IMG/VR virus record: IMGVR_UViG_3300026268_000001
Location: 1 to 32,199 of that record
Direction: 5' to 3' (one strand)
Length of the DNA: 32,199 nt
From: a virus
Shown here: one piece after another, positions 9,929-28,428 of the stretch
Numbering within the stretch: the stretch's first letter is position 1
How the letters are laid out: every line of letters starts with the position of its first letter
Notes under the pieces: generated by a model
Databases searched by the model: none
Told to the model about the DNA's origin: nothing
The model's input: only the letters and a program-made list of their open reading frames with translations
Position numbers and translations under genes: made by a program

Positions 9929-10008
9929 TGGCTATGTTAGCCCAATGTATTGTATTTGGTATAATGGTATTTTGTTTTATTCAAATATGTAAAAAAGGGA
10001 GTTTTTAA
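9922..10008 (+). CDS. Membrane micropeptide (28 aa)
   Basis: 28 residues, almost entirely one hydrophobic helix (MLAQCIVFGIMVFCFIQI) with a short basic end (CKKGSF). AAGGAG (9908-9913) lies 8 nt upstream, and the start overlaps the 3' end of the initiator gene. Its final codons form the first arm of the terminator at 9993-10018. Good ribosome-site spacing argues for translation; the function is unknown. Confidence 0.5.
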   Translation: MVMAMLAQCIVFGIMVFCFIQICKKGSF

Positions 10009-10022
10009 ACTCCCTTTTCTTT
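9993..10022. terminator. Bidirectional intrinsic terminator
   Basis: AAAAGGGAG (9993-10001) pairs with CTCCCTTTT (10010-10018) around an eight-base loop; the arms can extend further into the loop. A-rich and T-rich flanks let it work in both directions. It separates the early rightward operon from the convergent acidic-protein gene. Confidence 0.85.
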
Positions 10023-10155: not shown

Positions 10156-10221
10156 AGAAGTCCTCCTATTAAAATAAATTTAATAATTAACCATTTTTTT
10201 AAAAAAATCAACATAAAATGC

Positions 10222-10250
10222 TTGTTTTAATATAACATAATTGTTATATT
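10222..10250 (+). promoter_or_regulatory. Putative late rightward promoter (extended -10)
   Basis: TTGTTT (10222-10227), 17-bp spacer, TATATT (10245-10250) preceded by TGT, so the -10 is of the extended TGn type. Expected start about 10257. It overlaps the right arm of the 24-bp palindrome, and a terminator lies about 105-130 bp downstream. Confidence 0.6.
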
Positions 10251-10251
10251 A
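10228..10251. promoter_or_regulatory. 24-bp perfect palindrome, possible operator and divergent promoter core
   Basis: TAATATAACA (10228-10237), spacer TAAT, TGTTATATTA (10242-10251): two perfect 10-bp arms. Because TGTTATATT is itself an extended -10 motif, each arm gives one on its own strand, facing the acidic-protein gene (minus) and the late operon (plus). A dimeric regulator or simple back-to-back promoters would both fit. Confidence 0.65.
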
Positions 10252-10280
10252 TAGATTATATTGGAAGAATTGTATTTCCA

Positions 10281-10337
10281 ATGGCTAAATTTAAGGACAT
10301 CTATAAGGATGATTTTTTCATTTTAGCTTCCCTTTAA
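10281..10337 (+). CDS. Possible leader micropeptide (18 aa)
   Basis: MAKFKDIYKDDFFILASL, between the late promoter and the terminator. A weak GGAAG lies about 12 nt upstream and part of the ribosome-site region is in a hairpin. It could act in attenuation, but no regulatory codon run is visible. It is listed because nothing else codes here. Confidence 0.2.
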   Translation: MAKFKDIYKDDFFILASL

Positions 10338-10360
10338 AAAAAATATATAAAAGAAAACTG

Positions 10361-10387
10361 CAGCTCTCATACCAGGAGAGCTGTTTT
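10361..10387 (+). terminator. Intrinsic terminator at the head of the late operon
   Basis: CAGCTCTC (10361-10368), loop ATACCAG, GAGAGCTG (10376-10383), then five T. It is a strong, G+C-rich stem in an A+T-rich genome. It stands between a promoter and the first late genes, so late transcription must read through or start again beyond it. Confidence 0.85.
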
Positions 10388-10406
10388 TACATGAGGACAA
10401 AACAAT

Positions 10407-12473: not shown

Positions 12474-13022
12474 ATGATACCATTTCCAAATAAGAAATAT
12501 AATATTATTTATGCTGATCCAGCTTGGCACTTTTCTAATTGGAGTGGTAAAGGAACAGTAAAAGCACCTATAAATCATTATAATACAATAAAATTAAAAG
12601 ATATTTGTGCTTTACCAGTTAATGAAATATCAGCAAATAATTGTATTTTATTTATTTGGTGTGTAGATCCATTATTAGATAAAGCATTTGATGTAATTAA
12701 AAGTTGGAATTTTACTTTTAAAACTATGGGTTTTGTTTGGGTAAAAATAACAAAACAAAACAAACCTAAAATGGGATTGGGTTATTGGACAAGAGGTTCA
12801 ACAGAATATTGTTTATTAGCAACAAAAGGAAAACCAAAAAGAATTAATAAAAGTATTAGTAAAACTATTATTGAACGACCAAGAGAACATTCAAGAAAAC
12901 CTGATTGTGTAAGAGATAGAATTGTAGAACTATGTGGAGATTTACCACGAATAGAATTATTTGCTAGAGAAAAAGTAGATGGTTGGGATTGTTGGGGTAA
13001 TGAAGTAAATGCCACTCACTAA
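12474..13022 (+). CDS. MT-A70 family N6-adenine DNA methyltransferase
   Basis: 182 residues with the MT-A70 hallmarks: YNIIYADPAWHF at 9-20 (catalytic DPAW 15-18), the CILFIWCVDPLL strand, TMGFVWVKITK, GLGYWTRGSTEYCLLATKGKP, REHSRKPDCVRDRIVELCGDLPRIELFARE near the end. It should methylate adenine N6 in DNA. Together with the ParB fusion enzyme it gives the phage two methyltransferases of different classes and no nuclease partner, which suggests protection from host restriction or a regulatory mark. The 3' end overlaps the terminase gene by 14 nt. Confidence 0.92.
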   Translation: MIPFPNKKYNIIYADPAWHFSNWSGKGTVKAPINHYNTIKLKDICALPVNEISANNCILFIWCVDPLLDKAFDVIKSWNFTFKTMGFVWVKITKQNKPKMGLGYWTRGSTEYCLLATKGKPKRINKSISKTIIERPREHSRKPDCVRDRIVELCGDLPRIELFAREKVDGWDCWGNEVNATH

Positions 13023-14229
13023 ACACCAAAAAGAAGTAGCAGAATGTAATAGCAGATTTAGAGTGCTAGTTACTGGTAGGCGATTTGGTAAGACTTTCCT
13101 AGCAATAAGAGAGTTAGCTAGATTTGCTATAAAACCAAAACAAAATGTATGGTATGTTGCACCAACTTATAGAATGTGCAAACAGATAGTATGGAATGAA
13201 TTAAAAGATAAACTAATAAAAGTAAACTGGATAGAGGAAACAAACGAACAAGAACTATGTGTAACACTTCGTAACAAAAGTAAAATAATATTAAAAGGTG
13301 CTGATAACTACGATAGTTTAAGAGGAGTAGGATTAAACTTTGTTGTATTAGACGAGTTTGCAGATATTAAAGAAGCTGCTTGGTTTGAAGTGCTGCGACC
13401 AACATTGGCAGACACAAAAGGACATGCTTTGTTCGTAGGCACACCAAGAGGACAATCTAGCTGGAGTTATGAGTTATTTAACAGAGGCAAAGACACAACA
13501 CAAAAAGAATGGAAGAGTTGGAGATTTAAAACAGTTGATGGTGGGCAAGTTACTAAAGAAGAAGTAGAACAGGCAAAACAAGATTTAGATGATAGAACAT
13601 TTAAACAAGAATTTTTAGGCAGCTTTGTTACCTACTCTGGACAAGTGTATTACAACTTTGATAGAGAGAAACATGTTGTTAGATGTAATATTACAGAGGG
13701 AACATTACATATTGGAATGGATTTTAATATTTCGCCTCTATGTGCTGTTATATTCCAGACTGATGGATCAACAGTTAAAGTAGTAAATGAAATAGTATTA
13801 CACACTTCCAATACTGATGAAATAGCAGAGGAAATTAAGAATAGATACGAGAACAAAAGAATTATTATCTATCCTGATCCTGCTTGTAGGCAAAGAAGAA
13901 CAAGTGCAGGAGGGAGGACAGATTTAAGTATATTACAAAATGCTGGATTTTCAGTAAAATGTAAGTATAGACACCCTGAAATAAGGGATAGAATAAATGC
14001 AGTTAATTCAAGGCTGCAAAATAGTGATGGAGAAGTATTATTGTATATTGATCCAAGATGTAAGAGAACTATTCATTCATTAGAAAGACAATTATACAAA
14101 CAAGAATCAAGTGTTCCAGATAAAGATAGTGGTTATGACCACATGAATGATGCTTTAGGATATGCAGTAGAATACTTATTCCCAGTAAAAAATATAGTAA
14201 ATTTTGAACAACCAAGGAGATGGAGTTAA
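13009..14229 (+). CDS. terL: Terminase large subunit
   Basis: 406 residues with ATPase and nuclease motifs. Walker A-like GRRFGKT at 23-29, adenine-contact WYVAPTY (48-54), Walker B VVLDEF (112-117), and coupling motif GTPRG (144-148) in the N-terminal half. The C-terminal RNase H-like nuclease has Asp238 (GMDFN), Asp290 (YPDPA) and Asp381 (HMNDALGY). It pumps DNA into the procapsid and cuts it. The length is at the short end for the family but all motifs are complete. It lies before the portal gene, as is usual. The circular overlap at the window ends would fit headful or cos packaging; the sequence does not decide which. Confidence 0.95.
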   Translation: MPLTKHQKEVAECNSRFRVLVTGRRFGKTFLAIRELARFAIKPKQNVWYVAPTYRMCKQIVWNELKDKLIKVNWIEETNEQELCVTLRNKSKIILKGADNYDSLRGVGLNFVVLDEFADIKEAAWFEVLRPTLADTKGHALFVGTPRGQSSWSYELFNRGKDTTQKEWKSWRFKTVDGGQVTKEEVEQAKQDLDDRTFKQEFLGSFVTYSGQVYYNFDREKHVVRCNITEGTLHIGMDFNISPLCAVIFQTDGSTVKVVNEIVLHTSNTDEIAEEIKNRYENKRIIIYPDPACRQRRTSAGGRTDLSILQNAGFSVKCKYRHPEIRDRINAVNSRLQNSDGEVLLYIDPRCKRTIHSLERQLYKQESSVPDKDSGYDHMNDALGYAVEYLFPVKNIVNFEQPRRWS

Positions 14230-14232
14230 ACA

Positions 14233-15645
14233 ATGGCTTATGACAGAGAATATTTAGAAACAGTCCATGATAATTATAAGAAGCTAACCCAACAATGGGA
14301 GTTTCTAGTAAGAAGTTATTATGGAGGAAAAGAATACAAACTAGGAAATTATTTACACCAATATAACCTGGAATTAGATAACGAATATGATTTAAGATTA
14401 GATTCAACACCTTTAGACAATCATTGTAGAAATGTAGTTCAGGTGTATAGCAGCTTTTTATTTAGGCAACCACCGAAAAGAGATTTAGGTAATTTTGCCC
14501 AAGATGAAGCAGTCCAAGCATTTATGAGAGATGCAGATTTAGATGGTAGAGGATTAGACACACTTATGAAAGATGCTTCTACCTATTCAATGATTTATGG
14601 TAATTGCTGGTTATTTGTAGATAAACCAACCACAAATGTTGGAACAAGAGCAGAAGAATTAAAAGAGGATATAAGACCTTATGTAAGTATAGTTACACCT
14701 GAAAATGTAACTAACTGGGATTATGAAAGATTGCCTAATGGAAAATATGATTTAACAGAAGTTGTTGTTAGAGAAGATATAAATAAAGAGGGAACTATAT
14801 ATCGTGTATGGAAAAAAGACCTTATTAGTTTATGTTTGTTACCAGATAAAGGAGAATCTGTTACTTTGGAAGAATTGCCTAACAAATTGGGTAAGATTCC
14901 TGCTGTAATTCTTTACAATCAAAGATCACCATCTAGGTATATAGGACTTTCGTCATTAGTTGATGTCGCAGAGTTACAGCAGTCAATCTATAATGAATTA
15001 AGTGAAATTGAACAATTAATACGATTAACAAACCACCCATCATTAGTTAAGACAGATAGTGTAGAAGCTAGTGCTGGAGCAGGTAGTGTTGTGTTGTTGC
15101 CTGATGATTTAGACCCTAATTTAAAACCTTATCAATTACAACCAAGTGGAGCAAGTTTGGATAGTGTAATGAATAGTATTAAAGAAAAAGTTAGTGCTAT
15201 TGATAGGATTTCACATTTAGGAGCTGTTAGAACAATAAGAGAAACACCTACATCTGGAATTGCACTTCGCACAGAATTCAACATGTTGAACAGCAAACTG
15301 TCAGAACAGGCAGATTTACTACAATTAGCTGAAGAACAAGTTTGGGATTTATATGCTGATTGGCAGGACATAGTTTTTGATGGGGATATAGAATATCCAA
15401 ATAATTTTGACATAAGAGATTATGCTGGAGATTTAGATTTCTTCCAAAAAGCTAAATTAGCAAGTGTTAAATCAGAAACATTTAACAAAGAAGTAGATAA
15501 GTTAATTGCTGGTGCTGTTGTTCAAGATGAAGAAGTATTACATGAAATTAATACACAAATAGATGAACAAGCTGTATCAATAGGGGAGTTTGAAGCAGAG
15601 AAAGTAGAAACTCCAGCAGAAGAAGTAGTAGAAGAAGAGGAATAA
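14233..15645 (+). CDS. Portal protein
   Basis: 470 residues, between terminase and the MuF-like gene. Portal-type features include PLDNHCRNVVQVYSSFLFRQPPKR (56-79), GRGLDTLMKDAST with SMIYGNCWLF (about 115), SRYIGLSSLVDVAELQQSIYNELSEIEQL (235-264), and a glutamate-rich C terminus ending EEVVEEEE. The pattern fits the DUF4055-type portals. It forms the dodecameric channel at one capsid vertex through which DNA enters and leaves, and to which the terminase and the connector bind. Confidence 0.88.
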   Translation: MAYDREYLETVHDNYKKLTQQWEFLVRSYYGGKEYKLGNYLHQYNLELDNEYDLRLDSTPLDNHCRNVVQVYSSFLFRQPPKRDLGNFAQDEAVQAFMRDADLDGRGLDTLMKDASTYSMIYGNCWLFVDKPTTNVGTRAEELKEDIRPYVSIVTPENVTNWDYERLPNGKYDLTEVVVREDINKEGTIYRVWKKDLISLCLLPDKGESVTLEELPNKLGKIPAVILYNQRSPSRYIGLSSLVDVAELQQSIYNELSEIEQLIRLTNHPSLVKTDSVEASAGAGSVVLLPDDLDPNLKPYQLQPSGASLDSVMNSIKEKVSAIDRISHLGAVRTIRETPTSGIALRTEFNMLNSKLSEQADLLQLAEEQVWDLYADWQDIVFDGDIEYPNNFDIRDYAGDLDFFQKAKLASVKSETFNKEVDKLIAGAVVQDEEVLHEINTQIDEQAVSIGEFEAEKVETPAEEVVEEEE

Positions 15646-17391: not shown

Positions 17392-18237
17392 ATGGCTGAC
17401 GAAACGACAAGCTCAACATTGGGTGAGCTATACACAGAAATCGTTGCTGAAGCCCTTTTTGTTGCACAAGAAGCTAGTGTTTTAAGAAACCTAGTAACTA
17501 ATTACAACATCACAGGTCAAGGTAAAGAAATCTCTGTGCCTATTTATGCTGCAGTAAGTGCTGCTGCTGTTGCAGAAGCAACTGACTTATCTAACACAGC
17601 AGTCAATCCAACAGAAGCAACTTTTACAGCATCTGAACATGGAGTAATGACAACATTAACAGACCTTGGTGCATCAACAGCATCTAGGAATGTTGCAGCT
17701 GACATTGGTAAATTATTTGGTAATGCGATTGCCAAAAGATTAGACCAAGATCTTATCGCTTTATTTGATGGATTCAGCACAGGCAAAGGAGCAGATAATA
17801 CTGCTTTAACTGCGGCAACAGTATTTGAAGTTGCTGCTACATTAAGAAATCAAAATCTACCAATTAACGAGTGTGCTTTAGTATTGCCGCCAACAGTAGC
17901 TTATGATTTAAAAGCGAATGCGACTAACTCTTTTGTAAATCCTGCAGATGCAAGATTACAAAATAGTATAATGGGAACTGGCTTTATTGGTTCAGTAGGA
18001 GGATTGAATGTTTATGAATCATCTAATGTTTCTAATTCAGGAACAACTGGAGATTATAAATGTGGAGCTTTCCATCCTAGTGCAATAGGTCTAGCAATGA
18101 AGCAAGACATTAAAATCGAAACCCAAAGAGATGCAAGTTTACGAGGAACAGAAATCGTAGCTACTGCAGTTTGGGGTGAAGGCGAAATTTACGATTCCTA
18201 TGGAGTTGAAGTTGAAGCCGATTCATCTATTGAGTAA
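17392..18237 (+). CDS. Major capsid protein (HK97-like fold expected)
   Basis: 281 residues with a strong AGGAGG upstream, followed by a good terminator. Features include ETTSSTLGELYTEIVAEALF at the start, VPIYAAVSAAAVAEATDL (about 45-62), HGVMTTLTDLGASTASRN, IAKRLDQDLIALFDGFS (about 112-128), ALVLPPTVAYDLK and a conserved C-terminal VWGEGEIYDSYGVEV. It is relatively short for a capsid protein with a scaffold gene. Codon usage is richer in G+C than its neighbours, as expected for a highly expressed gene. It builds the icosahedral shell. Confidence 0.9.
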   Translation: MADETTSSTLGELYTEIVAEALFVAQEASVLRNLVTNYNITGQGKEISVPIYAAVSAAAVAEATDLSNTAVNPTEATFTASEHGVMTTLTDLGASTASRNVAADIGKLFGNAIAKRLDQDLIALFDGFSTGKGADNTALTAATVFEVAATLRNQNLPINECALVLPPTVAYDLKANATNSFVNPADARLQNSIMGTGFIGSVGGLNVYESSNVSNSGTTGDYKCGAFHPSAIGLAMKQDIKIETQRDASLRGTEIVATAVWGEGEIYDSYGVEVEADSSIE

Positions 18238-18250
18238 TAGATAACTATTA

Positions 18251-18283
18251 AAGTGGGTGGAATATCTGCCCACTTTTTTTTTT
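18251..18283 (+). terminator. Intrinsic terminator after the major capsid gene
   Basis: AAGTGGG (18251-18257) pairs with CCCACTT (18269-18275) around an 11-base loop, followed by ten T (18274-18283). It would make a step down in transcription after the capsid gene, so that capsid protein is made in excess over tail proteins. Confidence 0.85.
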
Positions 18284-20112: not shown

Positions 20113-20502
20113 ATGGCGACACATACAGGAAGTGCAGGACTAGTTAAAGTAGGTTCTAATACTTGTGCAGAAGTAAGAAGTTTTACACTAGATACATCTG
20201 CTGAAATTTTAGAAGATACAGCTCTTACAGACACTTCAAGAACCTATGCAGTAGGTAAAAAAGGAGCAACAGTTTCTGTGGAATGTTGGTGGGACGAAAC
20301 TGACACTAATGGACAAATTGCAATAGCAGAGGGAAATCAAGTTACCCTTAATTTATATCCAGAGGGTGCAGATAGTGCCGACTACTATTTTAGTGGAACT
20401 TATATTATTACTGGGCAATCAGTATCTGTTCCAACAGATGGTATTATTGAAGCAACTTTTAGTGCAACAATGACTGGTGCACTGACAAGAGGAACTGTTT
20501 AA
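20113..20502 (+). CDS. Major tail tube protein
   Basis: 129 residues, beta-rich with short conserved turns: MATHTGSAGLVKVG, EVRSFTLDTSAEILEDTALTD, GATVSVECWWDETDTNGQ, VTLNLYPEG, SGTYIITGQSVSVPTDGIIEATFSATMTG. This fits siphovirus tail-tube proteins that stack as hexamers to form the DNA channel. It lies between the terminator and tail-chaperone genes, as usual. It is short for the family, which is common for phages with small genomes. Confidence 0.85.
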   Translation: MATHTGSAGLVKVGSNTCAEVRSFTLDTSAEILEDTALTDTSRTYAVGKKGATVSVECWWDETDTNGQIAIAEGNQVTLNLYPEGADSADYYFSGTYIITGQSVSVPTDGIIEATFSATMTGALTRGTV

Positions 20503-20898: not shown

Positions 20899-21044
20899 AA
20901 AAAGACCATGAGCAATTTGCTGTGATGTTTGTAGCAGAACAGCTAGGTATGTCTTTAACAGAAGTTGGGAAGATGTCTGTTGAGGAATTAATACAATGGA
21001 TTGCTTATTTTGAAGTTAAAACAGAAAAAGGAAATAAAAAATAA
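20892..21044 (+). CDS. Tail assembly chaperone, frameshift extension (T-like domain)
   Basis: 50 residues translated only after a -1 shift from the chaperone gene. It has a KKDHEQFAVMFVAEQLGMSL start and a VGKMSVEELIQWIAYFEVK helix pair typical of the T domain, which contacts the tail tube. Full product is about 168 residues (118 before the shift). Its TAA overlaps the ATG of the tape-measure gene. A separate start codon is not needed and no ribosome site is seen. Confidence 0.8.
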   Translation, partial: KLKKDHEQFAVMFVAEQLGMSLTEVGKMSVEELIQWIAYFEVKTEKGNKK

Positions 21045-22897
21045 TGGCAGCTACACAAAGAATGAACATTGACATTTTAGCACGAGATAAAACAGCTAAA
21101 GCAGTTAATAGTTCAAGAAAAAGATTTGATGGATTAAAGAGAAGTTTATTTAATGTAAAAACTGCAATGGCAGGTATTGGGTTTGGTTTACTTGCAAGAA
21201 ACCTTATTAATACTGGTAAATCCATTGAAAGTTTACAAGTAAGATTAAAGTTCTTATTTGGTTCTGCTGAAGAGGGAGCAAGAGCATTTGATAAGATGGC
21301 AGAATTTGCTAGTAAAGTTCCTTTTTCATTAGAACAAATACAACAAGGTGCTGGAAATCTTGCAGTAGTTACTAATAATGCAGATGAATTAGCACATATA
21401 ATGGAAATTACTGGTAATGTTGCTGCTGCAACAGGACTAGATTTTAGAACAACTGCCGAACAAGTCCAAAGATCATTGTCTGCTGGTATATCTGCTGCTG
21501 ATCTTTTTAGAGATAGAGGTGTAAAAGCAATGCTTGGGTTTAAAGCAGGTGCAACAGTTTCTATTGAAGAAACAAGAAAAGCATTTGACCGAGTATTTGG
21601 GGAGGGTGGACAATATGGAAAAACAACTGAAGAATTAGCTAAAACATTTGAGGGAACACTCTCAATGATTGGAGATAAAGTATTTAATTTTAAAAGAGTA
21701 TTATTAGATGCAGGTTTATTCCCAGAGTTGAAAAGACAATTTGGCGATTTGAATAATTTTCTTGCTGACAATGGAGAACAGGTAGATGAAATAGCAAGAA
21801 AAATAGGAGAAACATTAGGAAAAGCAGTTGCTGGAACTGGAGATGCTGTAAAATTTTTACATCAACATAGTGATGCACTCTTACTTACTTTAAAAGCATT
21901 GGTTGTATTAAAAATTAGTTCTATGTTTTATAATATGGCAACAGCGATTGGTGCAGCAAGTCTTGCTATGGGTAAGCTAAATGCTTTAACAAAAAAGAAT
22001 ATTATTTTATTAACTGCAACTGGTGTAATAGTGTTTTGGGATAAACTTAAAGGCAAAATACAAGAAACATTTGGTGTATTTAAAGATGAGATAGAAGAAT
22101 TAGAAGAAATTGCACCTAAAGCAGAAACTGTGTTACCACCTTTAACTGGAGAAAAGGAAGTAAAAAAAGTTAAAGATATTACAGAAGCAACAACAGACTT
22201 AAAAAAAATAACAGATAAATTATTAACTACTGAAGAAAAAGCTCTCCAAGTAAGAGATGAATCATTAAAACTTTTAACAGAAAATGCAGCATTTCAATCA
22301 TTAAGTTTTGCAGAACAAGTTAAATGGATTGGTAGAGTAACAGATGAATATGAAGAAGCAATTAAAGCAACAGATGAATTAACAGAAGCAGAAGAAAGAG
22401 CCAGAGATATTGGTAAAGAATTAGGTTTAACATTTACATCTGCTTTTGAAGATGCAGTAGTAGAGGGTAAGAAATTTAGAGATATTCTACAAGGTATATA
22501 CAAAGATTTATTGAGAATAATGTTAAGAAAAACTATTACTGAACCAGTCGGAACATTTTTATCAGACACACTTTCTGCTGGAGTAGGAGCTTTATTTCCA
22601 GGCAAACAATTTGGTGGTTCAGTTGCAGGAGGAAAACCACATATAGTAGGAGAAGCTGGACCAGAGTTATTTGTTCCAGGTTCATCTGGTAGTGTAGTTC
22701 CTAATCATCAACTAGGTGGAGGAACAAATGTAGTTCAAAATATTAATGTATCTACTGGTGTTCAACAAACAGTAAGAGCAGAAATTATACAATTAATGCC
22801 AATGATTAAAAAAGCAAGTGTAGAAGCTGTGCTTGAAGAACGATCAAGAGGTGGTCAAATGGCACAAGCAATGGGAGCAGTTTCACAAAACTCATAA
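21044..22897 (+). CDS. Tail tape measure protein
   Basis: 617 residues, which by the usual rule of about 0.15 nm per residue implies a tail near 90 nm, i.e. a siphovirus. The N-terminal half has long helices (KAVNSSRKRFDGLKRSLFNVK), TAMAGIGFGLLARNLINTGKS, and the conserved FEGTLSMIGDKVFNFK segment (about 202-217). Hydrophobic segments (about 270-330, LLLTLKALVVLKISSMFYNMA, IILLTATGVIVFW) may insert in the host membrane during DNA entry. The C terminus is Gly-rich with PHIVGEAGPELFVPG, a motif common at the end of tape-measure proteins. Confidence 0.93.
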   Translation: MAATQRMNIDILARDKTAKAVNSSRKRFDGLKRSLFNVKTAMAGIGFGLLARNLINTGKSIESLQVRLKFLFGSAEEGARAFDKMAEFASKVPFSLEQIQQGAGNLAVVTNNADELAHIMEITGNVAAATGLDFRTTAEQVQRSLSAGISAADLFRDRGVKAMLGFKAGATVSIEETRKAFDRVFGEGGQYGKTTEELAKTFEGTLSMIGDKVFNFKRVLLDAGLFPELKRQFGDLNNFLADNGEQVDEIARKIGETLGKAVAGTGDAVKFLHQHSDALLLTLKALVVLKISSMFYNMATAIGAASLAMGKLNALTKKNIILLTATGVIVFWDKLKGKIQETFGVFKDEIEELEEIAPKAETVLPPLTGEKEVKKVKDITEATTDLKKITDKLLTTEEKALQVRDESLKLLTENAAFQSLSFAEQVKWIGRVTDEYEEAIKATDELTEAEERARDIGKELGLTFTSAFEDAVVEGKKFRDILQGIYKDLLRIMLRKTITEPVGTFLSDTLSAGVGALFPGKQFGGSVAGGKPHIVGEAGPELFVPGSSGSVVPNHQLGGGTNVVQNINVSTGVQQTVRAEIIQLMPMIKKASVEAVLEERSRGGQMAQAMGAVSQNS

Positions 22898-22908
22898 AGG
22901 AAAAATAA

Positions 22909-23520
22909 ATGACAACTTATGCAATGCCAACAACAATAAGTCCAAAATCAGCAAGATTTGGATTAGTAACAAACACAAGAAGTTTTGTAAGTCCATTAAG
23001 TGGAGCAGTTCAAACAACAGCTATGAGTGGAGCAAGATGGACAGCTACATATACTTATCCACCAATGACACATGCAGAAGCAGGAGAATTTCTGGCATTT
23101 CTTATTTCATTACAAGGAAGTGAGAATAGATTTAATGCTTGGGACCCATTACATAAATTAAAAGGTAATAGAGGAACACCTACTGGCACACCATTAGTTA
23201 ATGGTGGCAGTCAAACTGGAACTGCTCTTGTGACAGACGGTTGGAGTGCAAGTACTTTAGTTTTAAAAAAGGGAGACTATTTTGTGGTCAACAACGAACT
23301 CAAAATGGTCACAGCAGATGAAACATCTGATGGTAGTGGAGATTTAACAATTAATTTTGAACCTGCTTTAAGAGCAAGTCCATCTAACAATGCAGCATTA
23401 ACAATATCGTCTTGCACAGCAGTTATGATGTTAGTTGATGATAACCAGACAATGTGGGATCAAACGAGTATAGAAAACTATGGTTTAACATTCTCAGGAA
23501 TAGAAGCTTTTACTTCATAA
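22909..23520 (+). CDS. Distal tail / baseplate-like tail protein
   Basis: 203 residues, directly after the tape measure. It has SPKSARFGLVTNTRSFVSPLSG, RWTATYTYPPMTHAEAGEFLAFL and NRFNAWDPLH, and later beta strands. The pattern is like DUF2460 and TIGR02217-type tail proteins of gene transfer agents and small siphoviruses, which lie between the tape measure and the tip. The exact family is uncertain, but a distal-tail role fits the gene order. The TAATG junction leads to the next small ORF. Confidence 0.75.
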   Translation: MTTYAMPTTISPKSARFGLVTNTRSFVSPLSGAVQTTAMSGARWTATYTYPPMTHAEAGEFLAFLISLQGSENRFNAWDPLHKLKGNRGTPTGTPLVNGGSQTGTALVTDGWSASTLVLKKGDYFVVNNELKMVTADETSDGSGDLTINFEPALRASPSNNAALTISSCTAVMMLVDDNQTMWDQTSIENYGLTFSGIEAFTS

Positions 23521-23609
23521 TGAAATGGCAAAATAAAGGTAAAGGTAGAAGAAAACGAGGTTCTAAACAAAGAAAAGCAAGACGAAGAAGAAACAGAAAA
23601 AGGAGGTAG
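23520..23609 (+). CDS. Arginine-rich micropeptide (29 aa)
   Basis: 29 residues with 11 Arg and 7 Lys and no acidic residue, net charge about +18. It starts in a TAATG junction and its last codons (AGG AGG) are the Shine-Dalgarno of the next gene, so it fills the whole 90-nt gap. It looks like a short protamine or nucleic-acid-binding tail. Because the region also serves as a ribosome-binding leader, translation is likely but not certain. Confidence 0.55.
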   Translation: MKWQNKGKGRRKRGSKQRKARRRRNRKRR

Positions 23610-23610
23610 C

Positions 23611-23925
23611 ATGAAGTGGTTTATGCTAATAATGTTTGTTCATATTTCACAATATGGACTTGAACAACCAAGTAATGTAAAATTTATTAAGATTGAAAAG
23701 GAATACAACTCTATGAAAGAATGTATTGATGATCAACCAAAACAAACGATAGAACAGATAAAGAAATTTGATTTTGATTATGATTGGAAAGTAGCATCAT
23801 GCACAAATAGTAGATTTCACATGTATTTATATCCTAATTATCCTAATAAAACGAAAGAAATATTAAAAGGAGTTCCGATAAAATATGGATATGATAAGAT
23901 TAAAAAAAATAAAAAGACTAATTAA
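23611..23925 (+). CDS. Small secreted-type protein with two cysteines
   Basis: 104 residues with AAGGAGG upstream. The start (MKWFMLIMFVHISQYGLEQP) is a likely signal peptide or membrane anchor. The pattern NSMKECID...DWKVASC resembles the gene at 3433 (VNECISKA...YMC), and both may belong to one group of disulfide-bonded small phage proteins. The tail is basic. Function is unknown. It is an accessory gene inserted among the tail genes. Confidence 0.6.
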   Translation: MKWFMLIMFVHISQYGLEQPSNVKFIKIEKEYNSMKECIDDQPKQTIEQIKKFDFDYDWKVASCTNSRFHMYLYPNYPNKTKEILKGVPIKYGYDKIKKNKKTN

Positions 23926-24004
23926 AGATATTATGACTATTAAAAAAAGTGGTAAGTTACCTGGTCATACAGGACCACATGGAGCAAATCCAGATAAAAG
24001 ATAA
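23885..24004 (+). CDS. Possible small ORF (39 aa)
   Basis: 39 residues (MDMIRLKKIKRLIKDIM..., then GKLPGHTGPHGANPDKR), overlapping the preceding gene by 41 nt. AAAGGAG (about 23866-23872) lies 12 nt upstream. A basic amphipathic helix is followed by a Gly-Pro-His-rich end. No family is recognised. Confidence 0.4.
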   Translation: MDMIRLKKIKRLIKDIMTIKKSGKLPGHTGPHGANPDKR

Positions 24005-24013
24005 ATTAAAAAA

Positions 24014-24063
24014 GAGAGAGTAGTGCCGAGTATATTCAAAACTACTCTCTCAGTATTTGAATA
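24014..24063 (+). other. Pseudoknot-capable hairpin in an intergenic gap
   Basis: GAGAGAGTAGT (24014-24024) pairs perfectly with ACTACTCTCTC (24041-24051) over 11 bp. Within its loop TATTCAAA (24033-24040) is complementary to TTTGAATA (24056-24063) downstream, 8 bp. The two helices interlock as an H-type pseudoknot, though the four-base 3' loop is short for crossing an 11-bp helix, so alternative hairpins are equally possible. There is no T run, so it is not a simple terminator. It fills most of the gap 24005-24116. Confidence 0.55.
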
Positions 24064-24116
24064 AATTAATAAAACATATAAATAACATAATGTTACCTAT
24101 GGGAGAATTATAAACT

Positions 24117-24695
24117 ATGACACGAACAATAGCAACAGCAAATAAAAATGAAACAACAGCAGAAGTCTTTAGACCTGTTTTGTTCTTATTCCTAGACCTT
24201 GATGGTGGAGATGTAACAGTTAATTCTTCAGACCAAGATATAGCATGGGATTTTGATGGGGATAGTAGTGATGAAACATTTACTGGTGTTGGACAATTTG
24301 GAAGTGTATCAGTAATAAATGAAAGTGCTGATTTAAAAGCATCAGGAATACAATGTATGCTTACTGGAGTTCCAACTACTCATATTAGTAATGCTTTATC
24401 AGAAGATTATTCTGGCAGAACAGCAAAACTATATATAGGATTTTTAAATGCTAGTAGAGTATTAGTAGCTGATCCAATGGTTATATTTGCAGGAAGAATA
24501 GATGCTATGGATATTCAAATAGGAAAAACTGCAAGTGTATCTGTTTCAATAGAATCAAAATTAGTAGATTGGGAAAGAGCAAGAATTAGACGATATACCA
24601 ACGAGGATCAAAGAAACTTATATTCTACTGATGAATTTTGTGAATTTGTTGTGCAAACAGTAGAAAAGGAGTTGGTATGGGGACAAAAGACATAA
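24117..24695 (+). CDS. Minor tail protein (DUF2163-like)
   Basis: 192 residues with GGGAG upstream. Beta-rich: VFRPVLFLFLDLDGGDV at the start, FTGVGQFGSVSVINESADLKASGIQC, ALSEDYSGRTAKLYIGFLN, VADPMVIFAGRIDAMDIQIGKTASVSVSIESK and WERARIRRYTNEDQRNLY. This follows the pattern of gene-transfer-agent gp13-like and DUF2163-type tail proteins that build the tip hub. The next gene is the peptidase-like one, as in those systems. It overlaps it by 19 nt. Confidence 0.75.
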   Translation: MTRTIATANKNETTAEVFRPVLFLFLDLDGGDVTVNSSDQDIAWDFDGDSSDETFTGVGQFGSVSVINESADLKASGIQCMLTGVPTTHISNALSEDYSGRTAKLYIGFLNASRVLVADPMVIFAGRIDAMDIQIGKTASVSVSIESKLVDWERARIRRYTNEDQRNLYSTDEFCEFVVQTVEKELVWGQKT

Positions 24696-25099
24696 CTAAA
24701 TTAGCAGCATATTTAAGTAAAGTTCAAAATAAACCTTTTAAATATGGAACTTTAGATTGTGCCATCTTTACTGTAAGTGCTGTTGATAGCCAAATTGGAA
24801 CTAAATTAAAAAGTAAATTGTTTGGTAAATACAAAGACTTAAAAGGTGTGGCTAAACGAATAAAAGAATTAGGCAAAGGCAAGTATATTAATGCCATAGA
24901 AAAGATTTGCAAAGATAATAAATTTAAAGAAATAAGTCCAGATTATGCCCAAAGAGGAGATGTTTGTATTATGAAAGATAAAAACAAAACAGTAATGGGT
25001 ATTATTGGATTAAATAACAAACCTGTGTTTGTAGGTAAAGAGGGTGGTTTAGTAGAATTTGATAAAGATATAATTGAAAGAGTTTGGAGGATTGAATAA
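24677..25099 (+). CDS. NlpC/P60-like tail peptidase (DUF6950-type)
   Basis: 140 residues. PFKYGTLDCAIFTVSAVD (20-37) carries the likely catalytic Cys28. The second half has the RGDVCIMKDKNKTVMGIIG strand and a GGLVEF...RVWRIE end, matching the DUF6950/NlpC-P60 plan. I could not assign the catalytic His with confidence. In the homologous place of other phages such a protein at the tail tip cuts peptidoglycan during DNA entry. It starts inside the tail gene upstream and its stop overlaps the tip gene (TAATG). Confidence 0.75.
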   Translation: MGTKDITKLAAYLSKVQNKPFKYGTLDCAIFTVSAVDSQIGTKLKSKLFGKYKDLKGVAKRIKELGKGKYINAIEKICKDNKFKEISPDYAQRGDVCIMKDKNKTVMGIIGLNNKPVFVGKEGGLVEFDKDIIERVWRIE

Positions 25100-28000
25100 T
25101 GGGTGGAGTAGTAAAATCAGTTGCTATGTTTGGGCTAAAAAATGTTATAGCCGATCCATCATTAGCTGGTATAGGATTTAGTTTTAACCCCTGGACTTTT
25201 GTTGCAAAATTAGCTGTTACTCTTGCTGTTCAATCAGCATTTAATGCAGTTGCTGGAAAAAGAAAACCAACATTACCAAGCCCTGCATTTGAAGAAGAAA
25301 ACGAAACAAGAAAAACAATGGTTCGTTCTACTGTTGCTCATAGGTCAGTAATGTATGGAGAAACACTTACATCAGGACCAATAATTTTTGCAGATACAAG
25401 TGGAACAGATAATAAGTATTTACATTTAGTAATTCCAATATCTCATACTGATTATGGATATGGAATAAATAGTATAGATAAAGTTTATTTAAACGATACA
25501 GCAATTACTTTATCAACTGATTTAGATGGAAGTAATGTAGTTAATACTGGCAATTACAATGGCAAGGTTAGAATAAAAACAGCATTAGGTAAATCAACTC
25601 AAACAGCAGATTCAGATGCTGTAAGTGAAATTACTAATTGGGGTTCAAATCATATTGGGAAAGGTGTCAGTTATTGTTATCTTCGCCTAGAATACAATCA
25701 AGATACATTTCCAACAGGAATACCAAATGTAAGAGTTCAAGCACAGGGAATGAGATGTTTGGACACTAGATACACTACCTTTGCAGCAAACACAGTTATA
25801 AATACTTCAACAGAAATTTTTACTATCTCTAGCCATTCGTTTTCAACCGGTGATGGTTGGATTTATAATAATGCAGGAAATAGTAATATCGGTGGGCTTA
25901 CATCAGGAACAACTTATTATGTTATAAAAGTAGATGCTAATACTTTTAAATTAGCAACTTCATTAGCAAATGCAGAAGCAGGAACAGCAGTTAATATAAC
26001 CTCTTCGCCTTCAGAAACTCACAAATTTCAAAAGATAACTTTTAGTAAAAACCCTGCTGTAATTATTAGACATTATTTGACTTCAGATTATGGATTAAAT
26101 TTATCTGATGACGAAGTAGATACAACAAGTTTTGATGCAGCAGCAAATGTTTGTGATGAAACAATCACTAATAAAGATACTACTACATCTAGTAGATATG
26201 AATGTGGTGGTATGGTTGACCTTGGAAAAACTCCAATGGATATTATTGCACAGCTTTTAACATCTTGTGTCGGACTGCTTGTCTATGAGCAAGGAAAGTA
26301 TAAATTATTTACAGGTGCAGCAACTTCTTCTGTTAAAACATTTACAGAAGATAATCTACGAGGAGAAGTTCAAGTAAGAACAAAACCAAGTAAAAAAGAA
26401 CTCTACAATGCAATCAAGGGGACATTCCAAGATTCAAATAATCAATATCATAGTTCAGAATTTGAGTTGCAAACAAACTCTACCTACGAAACAGCAGATG
26501 GTAGTGAAAGAATTATAAGAGATATAGAGTTACCTTTTACCAGTTCTCGAGTAGCTGCCCAAAGGATTGCAAGATTACATTTAAACAAATCAAGACAAGC
26601 AATAAGTGTGGATTTACCCTGCAATATGAGTGCTATGGAGGTATCGGTGGGAGACACCATATCTTTGACACTATCAGATTTAGGGTGGACAGCAAAAGAA
26701 TTTAAAGTATTAGAATGGAATTTATCTAATGATGGAGGTATTGATTTAAGATTACAGGAAGAAGCAAGTTCAGTTTATTCTTGGACTTCTGCAGATGATG
26801 AAACGACAACAGATGCAGCACCAAATACTACATTACCAAGTAGCTTTAGTGTTACAGCACCAGACACAATAGCTGTATCTGACACATTAGCAAGTTTCTA
26901 TGATGGACAAGTTGTTCCAGCTACAACAATCACTATTGCTTCAACTGATCCTTATTCGCAATTCTTTGAAGTAACTTATAAATTGTCTAGTGATAGCACA
27001 TATATATTATTAGGAGAGGGCAGACAAACAACCTTTACAACACATCAATTAAAAGAGGGCAGCACTTACGACATAAGGGCGAGAGCTAGAAATTATGTTG
27101 GTGTTTATAGTGGTTTTACTACAACATCATATACAGTTGTAGGAGAATTAGATCCACCATCAACAGTAACAAATTTTGCATGTAATATTATTGGGGAAAA
27201 AGCATATTTATCATGGGACCCTGTAACTGATTTGGATTTGGCATTTTATGAAATTAGATATTCTACCGCGACAAGTGGAGCAGATTGGTTTAATAGTGTT
27301 GTCTTAATAGAAAAAGTTTCAAGACCTGGAACTTCTACTACTGTCCCAGCAAGAGTGGGTTCGTATTTAATTAAGGCAGTTGATAAAATGGGTAATTATA
27401 GTATTGCAGAAACTATTGCAATATCTACGATTGCTTCTCTAACAGGTTTAAATTTAGTAACAACAACCACTCAACATAGTGGTTTTACAGGAACAAAGAC
27501 AAATTGTGTAATTGATACAGCTACAACACCAGATGAATTAATTTTAAGTTCAACTACAAATTTTGATGATTTATTAGTAACAACTTTAGATGGTGCAATT
27601 AATAATAGTGTAACTTCTGTAACCTTAACTGATGCTGGTAATTTTCCAGATGGAGCAGGAACAATATTAATTGGATCAGAACAAATAACTTATACAGGAA
27701 AATCTACTAACACTTTAACAGGTTGCACAAGAGGTGCAAATAGCACAAGTGCAGCTTCGCATGTTGATGATGTTGCTGTTAAAGGATTCATAGATGATGC
27801 AGAAATATTCTTTGATTCAGGTGGAGCAAGTGGAACAGTTGAAACAGAGGGAACTTATTTATTTGATAGTGTAGTTGATTTAGGAGCAGTAGTAACAAGC
27901 AGATTGTTTCCTACTATTTCACAAACAGTTACAGACAGAACAAATCTATTTGATAATGTAGCAGATTCTTTTTTCGATAGTAGGTCAGGTTCATTTGATG

Positions 28001-28428
28001 GAGATGCAGTTAGTAGTTGCACAAGTATTTTATATTTTGCTTATTCAGATGATAATTCAAGTTATTCAGATTTTCAAAAAGCATTGGCTTCTTCAGATGT
28101 TACAGCGAGGTATTTAAAGTTTAAATTAGTAATGACATCTAATGGAGATGCAAGTCCAGAGGTTTCTGCATTATCAGTTGAAATAGATATGGTAGATAAA
28201 ATAGTATCTGAAAAAGATAAAAGTATTGGTTCTAGTGGAACTGCAATAACATTTCCTAATAGTGGTTTTAAAGTTACACCAATGGTAGCAATAACTATTC
28301 AAAGTAGTGCTACTGGAGATTATTTTACATTAAGTAGTATATCAGCGACAGGGTTTACTTGTAATATTTATAATTCATCTGCTGCAGGTAAAACTGGAAC
28401 AATTAATTATTTAGCAAGAGGTTATTAA
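25099..28428 (+). CDS. Tail tip / host-specificity protein (gpJ-like)
   Basis: 1109 residues, the largest protein in the window. The N terminus has a hydrophobic segment (about 30-50) and a gpJ-like region (AHRSVMYGETLTSGPIIFADTSG, HLVIPISHTD). An inserted repeat-like segment follows (about 232-310, FTISSHSFSTGDGW...LTSGTTYYVIKVDANTFKLATS). The middle resembles the phage tail tip attachment domain (YECGGMVDLGKTPMDIIAQLL, VSVGDTISLTLSDLGW). Fibronectin type III-like domains occupy about 600-790, and the C terminus is a beta-rich receptor-facing part. It should decide host adsorption. It overlaps the previous stop (TAATG). Confidence 0.9.
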   Translation: MGGVVKSVAMFGLKNVIADPSLAGIGFSFNPWTFVAKLAVTLAVQSAFNAVAGKRKPTLPSPAFEEENETRKTMVRSTVAHRSVMYGETLTSGPIIFADTSGTDNKYLHLVIPISHTDYGYGINSIDKVYLNDTAITLSTDLDGSNVVNTGNYNGKVRIKTALGKSTQTADSDAVSEITNWGSNHIGKGVSYCYLRLEYNQDTFPTGIPNVRVQAQGMRCLDTRYTTFAANTVINTSTEIFTISSHSFSTGDGWIYNNAGNSNIGGLTSGTTYYVIKVDANTFKLATSLANAEAGTAVNITSSPSETHKFQKITFSKNPAVIIRHYLTSDYGLNLSDDEVDTTSFDAAANVCDETITNKDTTTSSRYECGGMVDLGKTPMDIIAQLLTSCVGLLVYEQGKYKLFTGAATSSVKTFTEDNLRGEVQVRTKPSKKELYNAIKGTFQDSNNQYHSSEFELQTNSTYETADGSERIIRDIELPFTSSRVAAQRIARLHLNKSRQAISVDLPCNMSAMEVSVGDTISLTLSDLGWTAKEFKVLEWNLSNDGGIDLRLQEEASSVYSWTSADDETTTDAAPNTTLPSSFSVTAPDTIAVSDTLASFYDGQVVPATTITIASTDPYSQFFEVTYKLSSDSTYILLGEGRQTTFTTHQLKEGSTYDIRARARNYVGVYSGFTTTSYTVVGELDPPSTVTNFACNIIGEKAYLSWDPVTDLDLAFYEIRYSTATSGADWFNSVVLIEKVSRPGTSTTVPARVGSYLIKAVDKMGNYSIAETIAISTIASLTGLNLVTTTTQHSGFTGTKTNCVIDTATTPDELILSSTTNFDDLLVTTLDGAINNSVTSVTLTDAGNFPDGAGTILIGSEQITYTGKSTNTLTGCTRGANSTSAASHVDDVAVKGFIDDAEIFFDSGGASGTVETEGTYLFDSVVDLGAVVTSRLFPTISQTVTDRTNLFDNVADSFFDSRSGSFDGDAVSSCTSILYFAYSDDNSSYSDFQKALASSDVTARYLKFKLVMTSNGDASPEVSALSVEIDMVDKIVSEKDKSIGSSGTAITFPNSGFKVTPMVAITIQSSATGDYFTLSSISATGFTCNIYNSSAAGKTGTINYLARGY

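Follow-up and report, generated by a model that had tools for sequence, protein, structure and literature searches.

In Salmonella phage P22, the small antisense RNA sar spans the leader of ant, the gene that follows it, and has a terminator at its end. In P22, and likewise in phage epsilon34, sar lies in the 'ant moron' of the late operon region (PMC2629481). OOP of phage lambda is a 77-nt antisense RNA linked to cleavage by RNase III and breakdown of the mRNA it targets, according to a review (PMC5415839). For Pseudomonas phage PAK_P3, a 2016 paper lists 20 putative antisense RNAs, of which 8 are small and 15 are in the structural region, reports that early antisense RNAs are stronger early than late, proposes that they hold the late genes down early, and remarks that antisense RNAs are little described in phage genomes (PMC4933390). 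Within the parts of the literature on phage antisense or small RNAs and on pelagiphages that were available, we found no report of an antisense RNA in pelagiphages.

Here we describe a hairpin locus in the late operon of a pelagiphage-like virus. By analogy, the candidate RNA at this locus would be a further member of the PAK_P3, sar and OOP kind of phage cis-antisense RNA. It is proposed to lie opposite late structural genes, as many of the PAK_P3 RNAs do. The PAK_P3 RNAs were detected by RNA-seq and, with one exception, are located inside genes, whereas the RNA proposed here is predicted from the sequence, lies in an intergenic leader and has a clear terminator; the likeness is one of arrangement. 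With sar it shares the setting of a small antisense RNA inside a moron, meaning a gene cassette that has entered a phage operon, but sar controls an antirepressor and the candidate here faces a tail gene, and the sar promoter was characterised in vitro (judging from a reference title in PMC2629481), whereas the promoter here is predicted. Like OOP, it would be a short phage antisense RNA, but OOP acts near the 3' end of cII and the candidate's target would be a structural gene's leader. An 11-bp stem with U6 directly after it is what the locus has in common with intrinsic terminators; it differs from them in its long 16-nt loop with an inner 4-bp helix, and in facing against the operon.

Results

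The window, by which we mean the whole 32,199-base stretch of viral DNA that was analysed, carries every gene with a family or homology assignment on the plus strand. Judged from these sequences, it is a tailed phage related to Pelagibacter phages (pelagiphage-like). A search for tRNA and tmRNA genes in the window found none. The following genes are referred to below:

13009-14229, plus strand: terminase, 52.6-54.5% identity to Pelagibacter phages HTVC202P, 111P, 112P and 026P
14233-15645, plus strand: portal
17392-18237, plus strand: capsid
20113-20502, plus strand: major tail
21044-22897, plus strand: tape measure
22909-23520, plus strand: distal tail
24117-24695, plus strand: minor tail protein L (tail tip), directly downstream of the element described here; phrog_2048 tail protein, E = 9e-41
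24677-25099, plus strand: DUF6950 protein
25099-28428, plus strand: J-like tail fibre

The name 'minor tail protein L' (tail L hereafter) is the annotation in some relatives. The first-pass annotation had described the gap in front of tail L as one of the largest of the late operon, and with the operon limits set in this analysis the gap (24005-24116, 112 nt) ranks fourth.

A perfect 11-bp stem is located in this gap at 24014-24024/24041-24051 (GAGAGAGTAGT/ACTACTCTCTC) with a 16-nt loop, exactly where it had been placed before. Perfect stems of at least 11 bp with at least 5 G/C and a loop of at most 30 nt occur once in the window, compared with 0.05 per shuffle (60 shuffles), and the local fold of the hairpin region has a z score of -3.2 on the plus strand and -4.6 on the minus strand. 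The inverted repeat is present in a single copy in the window. When viral contigs were scanned for the exact stem, nine contigs were found, every one at the tail L locus; the same scan of bacterial and archaeal genomes returned two matches, L219 (a Mollicutes MAG) and L220 (a Clostridia MAG), which a rough hand-made expectation led us to take as chance. No sequence in the window matched an Rfam 15 family above its gathering cut-off, and the sole minus-strand match at E ≤ 10 within 23950-24200 scored 13.7 bits against a cut-off of 45.

The earlier description of the hairpin as one without a T run is true of the plus strand, where no U run is found 3' of the stem and AGTATTTGAA stands there instead, which fails as a plus-strand terminator. 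It does not apply to the minus strand, which has TTTTTT flush with the stem: the AAAAAA just to the left of the stem on the plus strand becomes a U tract in any minus-strand transcript, and AAAAAA flush on the left is found at 0.4% of positions. With 11 bp, 5 G-C pairs, a gap of 0 and TTTTTT, the minus strand has the anatomy of an intrinsic (Rho-independent) terminator:

24014-24051, minus strand: intrinsic-terminator hairpin, 11-bp stem 24051-24041/24024-24014 plus inner 4-bp helix 24039-24036/24029-24026
24008-24013, minus strand: U tract TTTTTT, directly 3' of the stem, gap 0

A strict terminator scan (stem of at least 8 perfect pairs, at least 3 G-C, loop of at most 20, at least 5 T in 6) of the window gave five strand hits at four sites, compared with 0.43 per shuffle (40 shuffles, maximum 3), and none of the 40 shuffles gave a terminator stem of at least 10 bp with at least 4 G-C. 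The sites are:

9995-10016, both strands: strict-scan terminator
10361-10383, plus strand: strict-scan terminator
18250-18276, plus strand: strict-scan terminator after the capsid gene
24051-24014, minus strand: strict-scan terminator at the hairpin described here

As scored, the last site has the longest stem of the four; counting T-run bases or G-T pairs as well gives 11 pairs for 9993-10018 and 12 for 18250-18276. Its minus-strand hairpin is the most stable at -20.0 kcal/mol, the other terminators being at -12.6 to -15.2 kcal/mol. The late genes identified by family are all on the plus strand and create no other obvious need for a leftward terminator, which speaks against one here.

Two further features of the window were noted during the scan. 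The 11-bp hairpin at 9993-10018 scores as a terminator on both strands. Between two terminators, the plus strand at 10200-10400 folds into strong hairpins (z score -3.2; 2 of 200 shuffles fold as well), and this region, including the terminator at 10361-10383, is a candidate for a second small RNA.

On the minus strand, reading leftward from the start of tail L, the sequence runs TTGCTA-17-TATAAT, which matches a promoter in 10 of 12 positions, followed by six bases and then by A24100. A24100 is also the first paired base of a 10-bp stem-loop. The candidate features on this strand are:

24008-24100, minus strand: candidate antisense RNA of about 93 nt, predicted 5' end A24100 and 3' end in the U tract
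24078-24100, minus strand: 5' stem-loop of 10 bp closed by a 3-nt loop; its two G-U pairs correspond to A.C mismatches in a plus-strand RNA
24052-24077, minus strand: variable A/T-rich linker, which contains 24056-24063, the downstream arm of an 8-bp helix considered below
24107-24112, minus strand: candidate -10 box TATAAT, with A24100 following as the 7th base
24130-24135, minus strand: candidate -35 box TTGCTA, within the coding start of tail L

The layout of the element resembles that of a small RNA gene, from which we infer its transcription. With the flanking tail genes on the plus strand and the U tract on the minus strand, the candidate RNA is encoded opposite the phage mRNA. Searching the minus strand of the element for a small ORF yielded only frames of 8-17 codons whose length varies between lineages. 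The distance from TATAAT to the 5' stem-loop is the same or nearly so in the three variants: the stem-loop starts at the 7th base in the window and in the relative L007 (in the latter as read from the sequence, the stretch used for folding having ended just short of base 7), and at the 7th (a U.G pair) or 8th base in the relative L005. TATAAT is unchanged in all five aligned records, although the adjoining Shine-Dalgarno site varies, and the -35 box in L007 is TTGCAA. Promoter-like sites are about as frequent in this A/T-rich genome (74) as in its shuffles (80), and 4 of 50 starts have an ATTATA in the 20 nt before them, so the candidate promoter could be chance.

Folding the whole element gave z scores on the minus strand of -5.5 (window), -6.1 (L005) and -3.8 (L007), and on the plus strand of -5.1, -4.3 and -5.1, respectively, so that the z score favours the minus strand in the window and L005 and the plus strand in L007. 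The minimum energy is lower on the minus strand in all three (minus/plus: -25.8/-20.7 kcal/mol in the window, -27.3/-20.5 in L005 and -25.7/-23.9 in L007). The consensus fold has -22.0 kcal/mol and 26 pairs on the minus strand versus -17.7 kcal/mol and 19 pairs on the plus strand, on which the 5' stem-loop shrinks to 5 bp. The surplus of pairs on the minus strand is largely G-U (A.C on the plus strand), at 24097, 24096, 24038/24027 and 24039/24026; this strand argument is a modest one, involving about four columns and expected one time in 16 by chance. The RNAalifold covariation term is +1.33 on the minus strand (slightly unfavourable) and -0.22 on the plus strand (slightly favourable), and one pair of the inner helix breaks in L005 (A.C). 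Because of the flush U tract and the G-U pairs, the minus strand is probably the working strand, a choice that rests mainly on the U tract.

A search with the tail L protein found nine loci. All eight with 95-100% identity (L001-L008) carry the stem, and it is absent from the ninth (L009, 39% identity in tail L); a further contig, L017, was found via the stem itself. The resulting 10 records fall into three variants, the window type (window, L001-L004), the L005 type (L005, L006, L017) and the L007 type (L007, L008). In scans with tail L, tail J, terminase and capsid, relatives were at least 90% identical or at most 71% identical, with none between among the matches listed.

Changes were counted on the minus-strand alignment, in the window's columns, over the window, L005, L007 and L008. 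Only 1 of 42 columns in the two stems has changed, versus 21 of 45 unpaired columns (16 by substitution; Fisher test 8e-7, and 7e-5 for substitutions alone). None of the 22 columns of the 11-bp stem has changed, and the single change among the 20 stem columns of the 5' stem-loop turns a G-U into an A-U at a position that is paired on the minus strand only. In the linker, 12 of 26 columns are substituted and others are gapped or inserted. The stems are held and their surroundings drift. The U tract is also kept in all three lineages, as TTTTTT in L005 and L017 and as TG followed by TTTTTTT in L007 and L008, whose upstream ORF differs. Because there are three variants with no two-sided compensatory change among them, the constancy of the stems is no proof of a constraint on RNA rather than on DNA.

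Between anchors, the three variants (window, L005 and L007 types) have A tracts of 6, 6 and 9, loops of 16, 16 and 19 and linkers of 26, 20 and 29 nt. All length differences are thus multiples of three, which four events would produce by chance about once in 81. In the plus-strand frame of the upstream 37-aa ORF (see below), continued past its stop, there is no start codon common to the variants, and third positions of the stem are as invariant as the rest. We therefore do not read the pattern as coding, yet it weighs against an explanation by RNA alone.

The element lies within a stretch inserted between the distal tail and tail L genes:

23521-24116, plus strand: moron-like insertion between the distal tail and minor tail L genes, with three small ORFs and the element
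23520-23609, plus strand: small Arg/Lys-rich ORF, 29 aa, with a one-base overlap with the distal tail stop codon
23611-23925, plus strand: 104-aa ORF, no family matched
23891-24004, plus strand: 37-aa ORF with a GHTGPHGA motif

The insertion measures 596 nt in the window and 591-709 nt in the sister lineages. We compared the distance between the distal tail stop and the tail L start over 119 loci with both flanking genes, several of them from one contig, and found that in other lineages it is at most 2 nt or 164-184 nt, save for two distant loci, L041 and L043. The spacing of 164-184 nt is that of HTVC-type phages, in which one small gene is annotated there. L041 and L043 have insertions of 861 and 606 nt, in which the small ORFs are different ones and perfect stems do not exceed 7 bp; by eye, L041 at 1640-2500 and L043 at 1895-2500 show an ORF that looks like a membrane anchor and a small ORF with Cys residues that is similar to the 104-aa ORF of the window. 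The insertion site seems open to small accessory genes. The window's insertion is absent from relatives at the same place, which is one mark of a moron. A moron would also be expressed independently from a promoter and terminator of its own, and the strict scan places a single terminator inside the insertion, pointing left. Since the spacing layout differs in distant relatives, we assign the element to this moron-like insertion, which most relatives lack.

The small ORFs of the insertion vary independently of the hairpin: the L007 type has an extra zinc-ribbon ORF and has kept the hairpin. The ORF at 23520-23609 encodes a peptide of 28-29 aa, composed largely of Arg, Lys, Gln and Gly, that is conserved in L005, L007 and L008; that such an Arg-rich peptide might bind the hairpin in the manner of lambda N is only an idea. 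The 37-aa ORF, which ends in GKLxGHTGPHGAxP, is also found in eight other viral contigs (L112-L119) with other neighbours. These contigs do not have the exact stem, and the notion that the element is part of the GHTGPHGA ORF was dropped. After the 37-aa ORF, L007 (at about 2750-2878) and L008 encode a zinc-ribbon mini-protein (CKMCFG...PCPRCKTKG), and the same mini-protein follows the GHTGPHGA ORF in L113 and L117, which are contigs of other phages. Read by eye, the window retains only the first 14 codons of the zinc-ribbon ORF, ending inside the hairpin.

A covariance model of the minus-strand RNA scored 99-103 bits in 11 of 87 sources, which are the same 10 records; nothing else in the 87 sources fell below E = 0.01, the plus-strand shadow of the palindrome being at 0.013 and weaker. 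The model also found no match in 30 other records (29 distant, seven of these named phages), a set with no positive control and many fragments, so that this negative shows little; the 30th, a fragment from L124 with 90% identity in terminase, gave no tail L gene either. A pattern scan for the 5' stem-loop returned 13 stretches, of which 4 are in new contigs (L215-L218); these do not have the 11-bp stem, and the 5' stem-loop was discarded as a wider motif.

The first-pass annotation had proposed that the loop of the 11-bp stem pairs with the sequence just downstream, as an H-type pseudoknot or two alternative hairpins. The 8-bp complement is present:

24033-24063, plus strand: 8-bp helix 24033-24040/24056-24063 (TATTCAAA/TTTGAATA) of the first-pass annotation, not conserved as such

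In the window this complement is mildly unusual (p = 0.0055 within 20 nt and 0.0165 within 40 nt; p = 0.05 by duplex energy). Neither its conservation nor its energy supports the proposal. Among relatives, 8 of its 16 columns have changed, 6 of them among the 8 of the downstream arm, and four bases (half) of that arm are gapped in L005 and L017. As a hairpin it has -2.8 kcal/mol versus -17.5 kcal/mol for the 11-bp stem, about 15 kcal/mol weaker. Perfect complementarity extends over at most 8 bp in the window and over at most 5 and 6 bp in its two sister lineages (p = 0.15 and 0.06). With one mismatch allowed, L005 (p = 0.05) and L007 (p = 0.14) each retain 7 of 8 pairs in a shifted register, but by duplex energy (p = 0.76 and 0.32) these pairings do no better than shuffles. 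Moreover, 4 nt separate the stem from the downstream arm, and a 3' loop of 4 nt is too short to cross an 11-bp stem, a doubt already voiced in the first-pass annotation. A pseudoknot or two-state switch on the plus strand is, in our judgement, highly improbable.

Discussion

We propose with moderate confidence that the hairpin is a leftward intrinsic terminator ending an antisense RNA of about 93 nt that likely damps the tail-tip genes. In this model, the hairpin would act as a Rho-independent terminator opposite the late genes, and transcription, starting at about A24100, would be driven by a promoter situated partly in the interval from the tail L Shine-Dalgarno site to the start codon and partly within the first codons of that gene. 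The RNA would consist of the 5' stem-loop from its first base, the variable A/U-rich linker and the terminator hairpin, and would be complementary to the mRNA at 24008-24100, up to the tail L Shine-Dalgarno site (about 24101-24105). We infer that it may form a duplex beside the tail L ribosome-binding site, with RNase III cutting; alternatively, antisense transcription opposing the late polymerase may act by transcription interference. The outcome would most likely be lower or later expression of the tail-tip genes (L, the DUF6950 protein and J). Tail-tip proteins are needed in few copies per virion. A regulatory role had been suggested at the outset, and for a conserved structured element before the tail-tip genes such a role remains plausible; the switch is what falls away, and the strand was probably the wrong one.

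The hairpin could instead be a leftward terminator that has no dedicated small RNA and serves as an insulator against stray or early antisense transcription from the right, shielding the cassette genes or preventing polymerase collisions. Such an insulator would account for the terminator anatomy, the strongest single fact, and would suit the weak promoter, but it leaves unexplained both the second stem-loop (24078-24100), which starts where the invariant TATAAT predicts, and the low rate of change in it (1 of 20 columns); we consider it unlikely. Somewhat less likely still is a hairpin of the plus-strand mRNA which would protect the upstream mRNA, be a site for RNase III or RNase E, or shape the tail L leader and so set the ratio of tip proteins. 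The flush A tract, kept in three lineages, would then have no role, the 5' stem-loop would have only its 5 bp, and a terminator on that strand would need the U tract that is absent, even though the plus strand is the coding strand of the late genes and its folds (z scores of -5.1, -4.3 and -5.1) are stronger in L007 than those of the minus strand.

The 11-bp inverted repeat is invariant in sequence and not just in pairing, and it lies near the edge of an inserted cassette, as might be expected of a DNA-level site, either a protein-binding inverted repeat or a trace left by insertion of the cassette. Its single copy in the window speaks against such a site, and DNA binding would leave the flush U tract and the second stem-loop unexplained, so that we regard this reading as very improbable. 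We give even less credence, in fact almost none, to a programmed -1 frameshift at A AAA AAG (24008-24014) followed by the hairpin. By eye, the heptamer is in frame in the 14-codon ORF remnant of the window (about 23978-24022), and the length differences between lineages are multiples of three. The signal was nevertheless rejected: the spacer is zero, the heptamer is lost in L007 and L008, where AAAAAAACAG replaces it, the frame that would be joined has no recognised product, and the Rfam frameshift match scored 20.1 bits against a cut-off of 88.

Returning to the terminator-ended antisense RNA, we tentatively suggest, as a possible though doubtful extension, that a moron-like cassette carries its own antisense RNA with a promoter embedded in the facing structural gene, across the first codons and the ribosome-binding region, an RNA that would close the cassette and throttle or time the tail-tip genes. 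The predicted RNA has fixed ends, which permits an exact test in strand-specific marine metatranscriptomes, and the locus teaches that both strands should be read before a hairpin 'without a T run' is taken for a switch. If the proposal is true, accessory cassettes in late operons could bring with them a dimmer for the gene that they precede.
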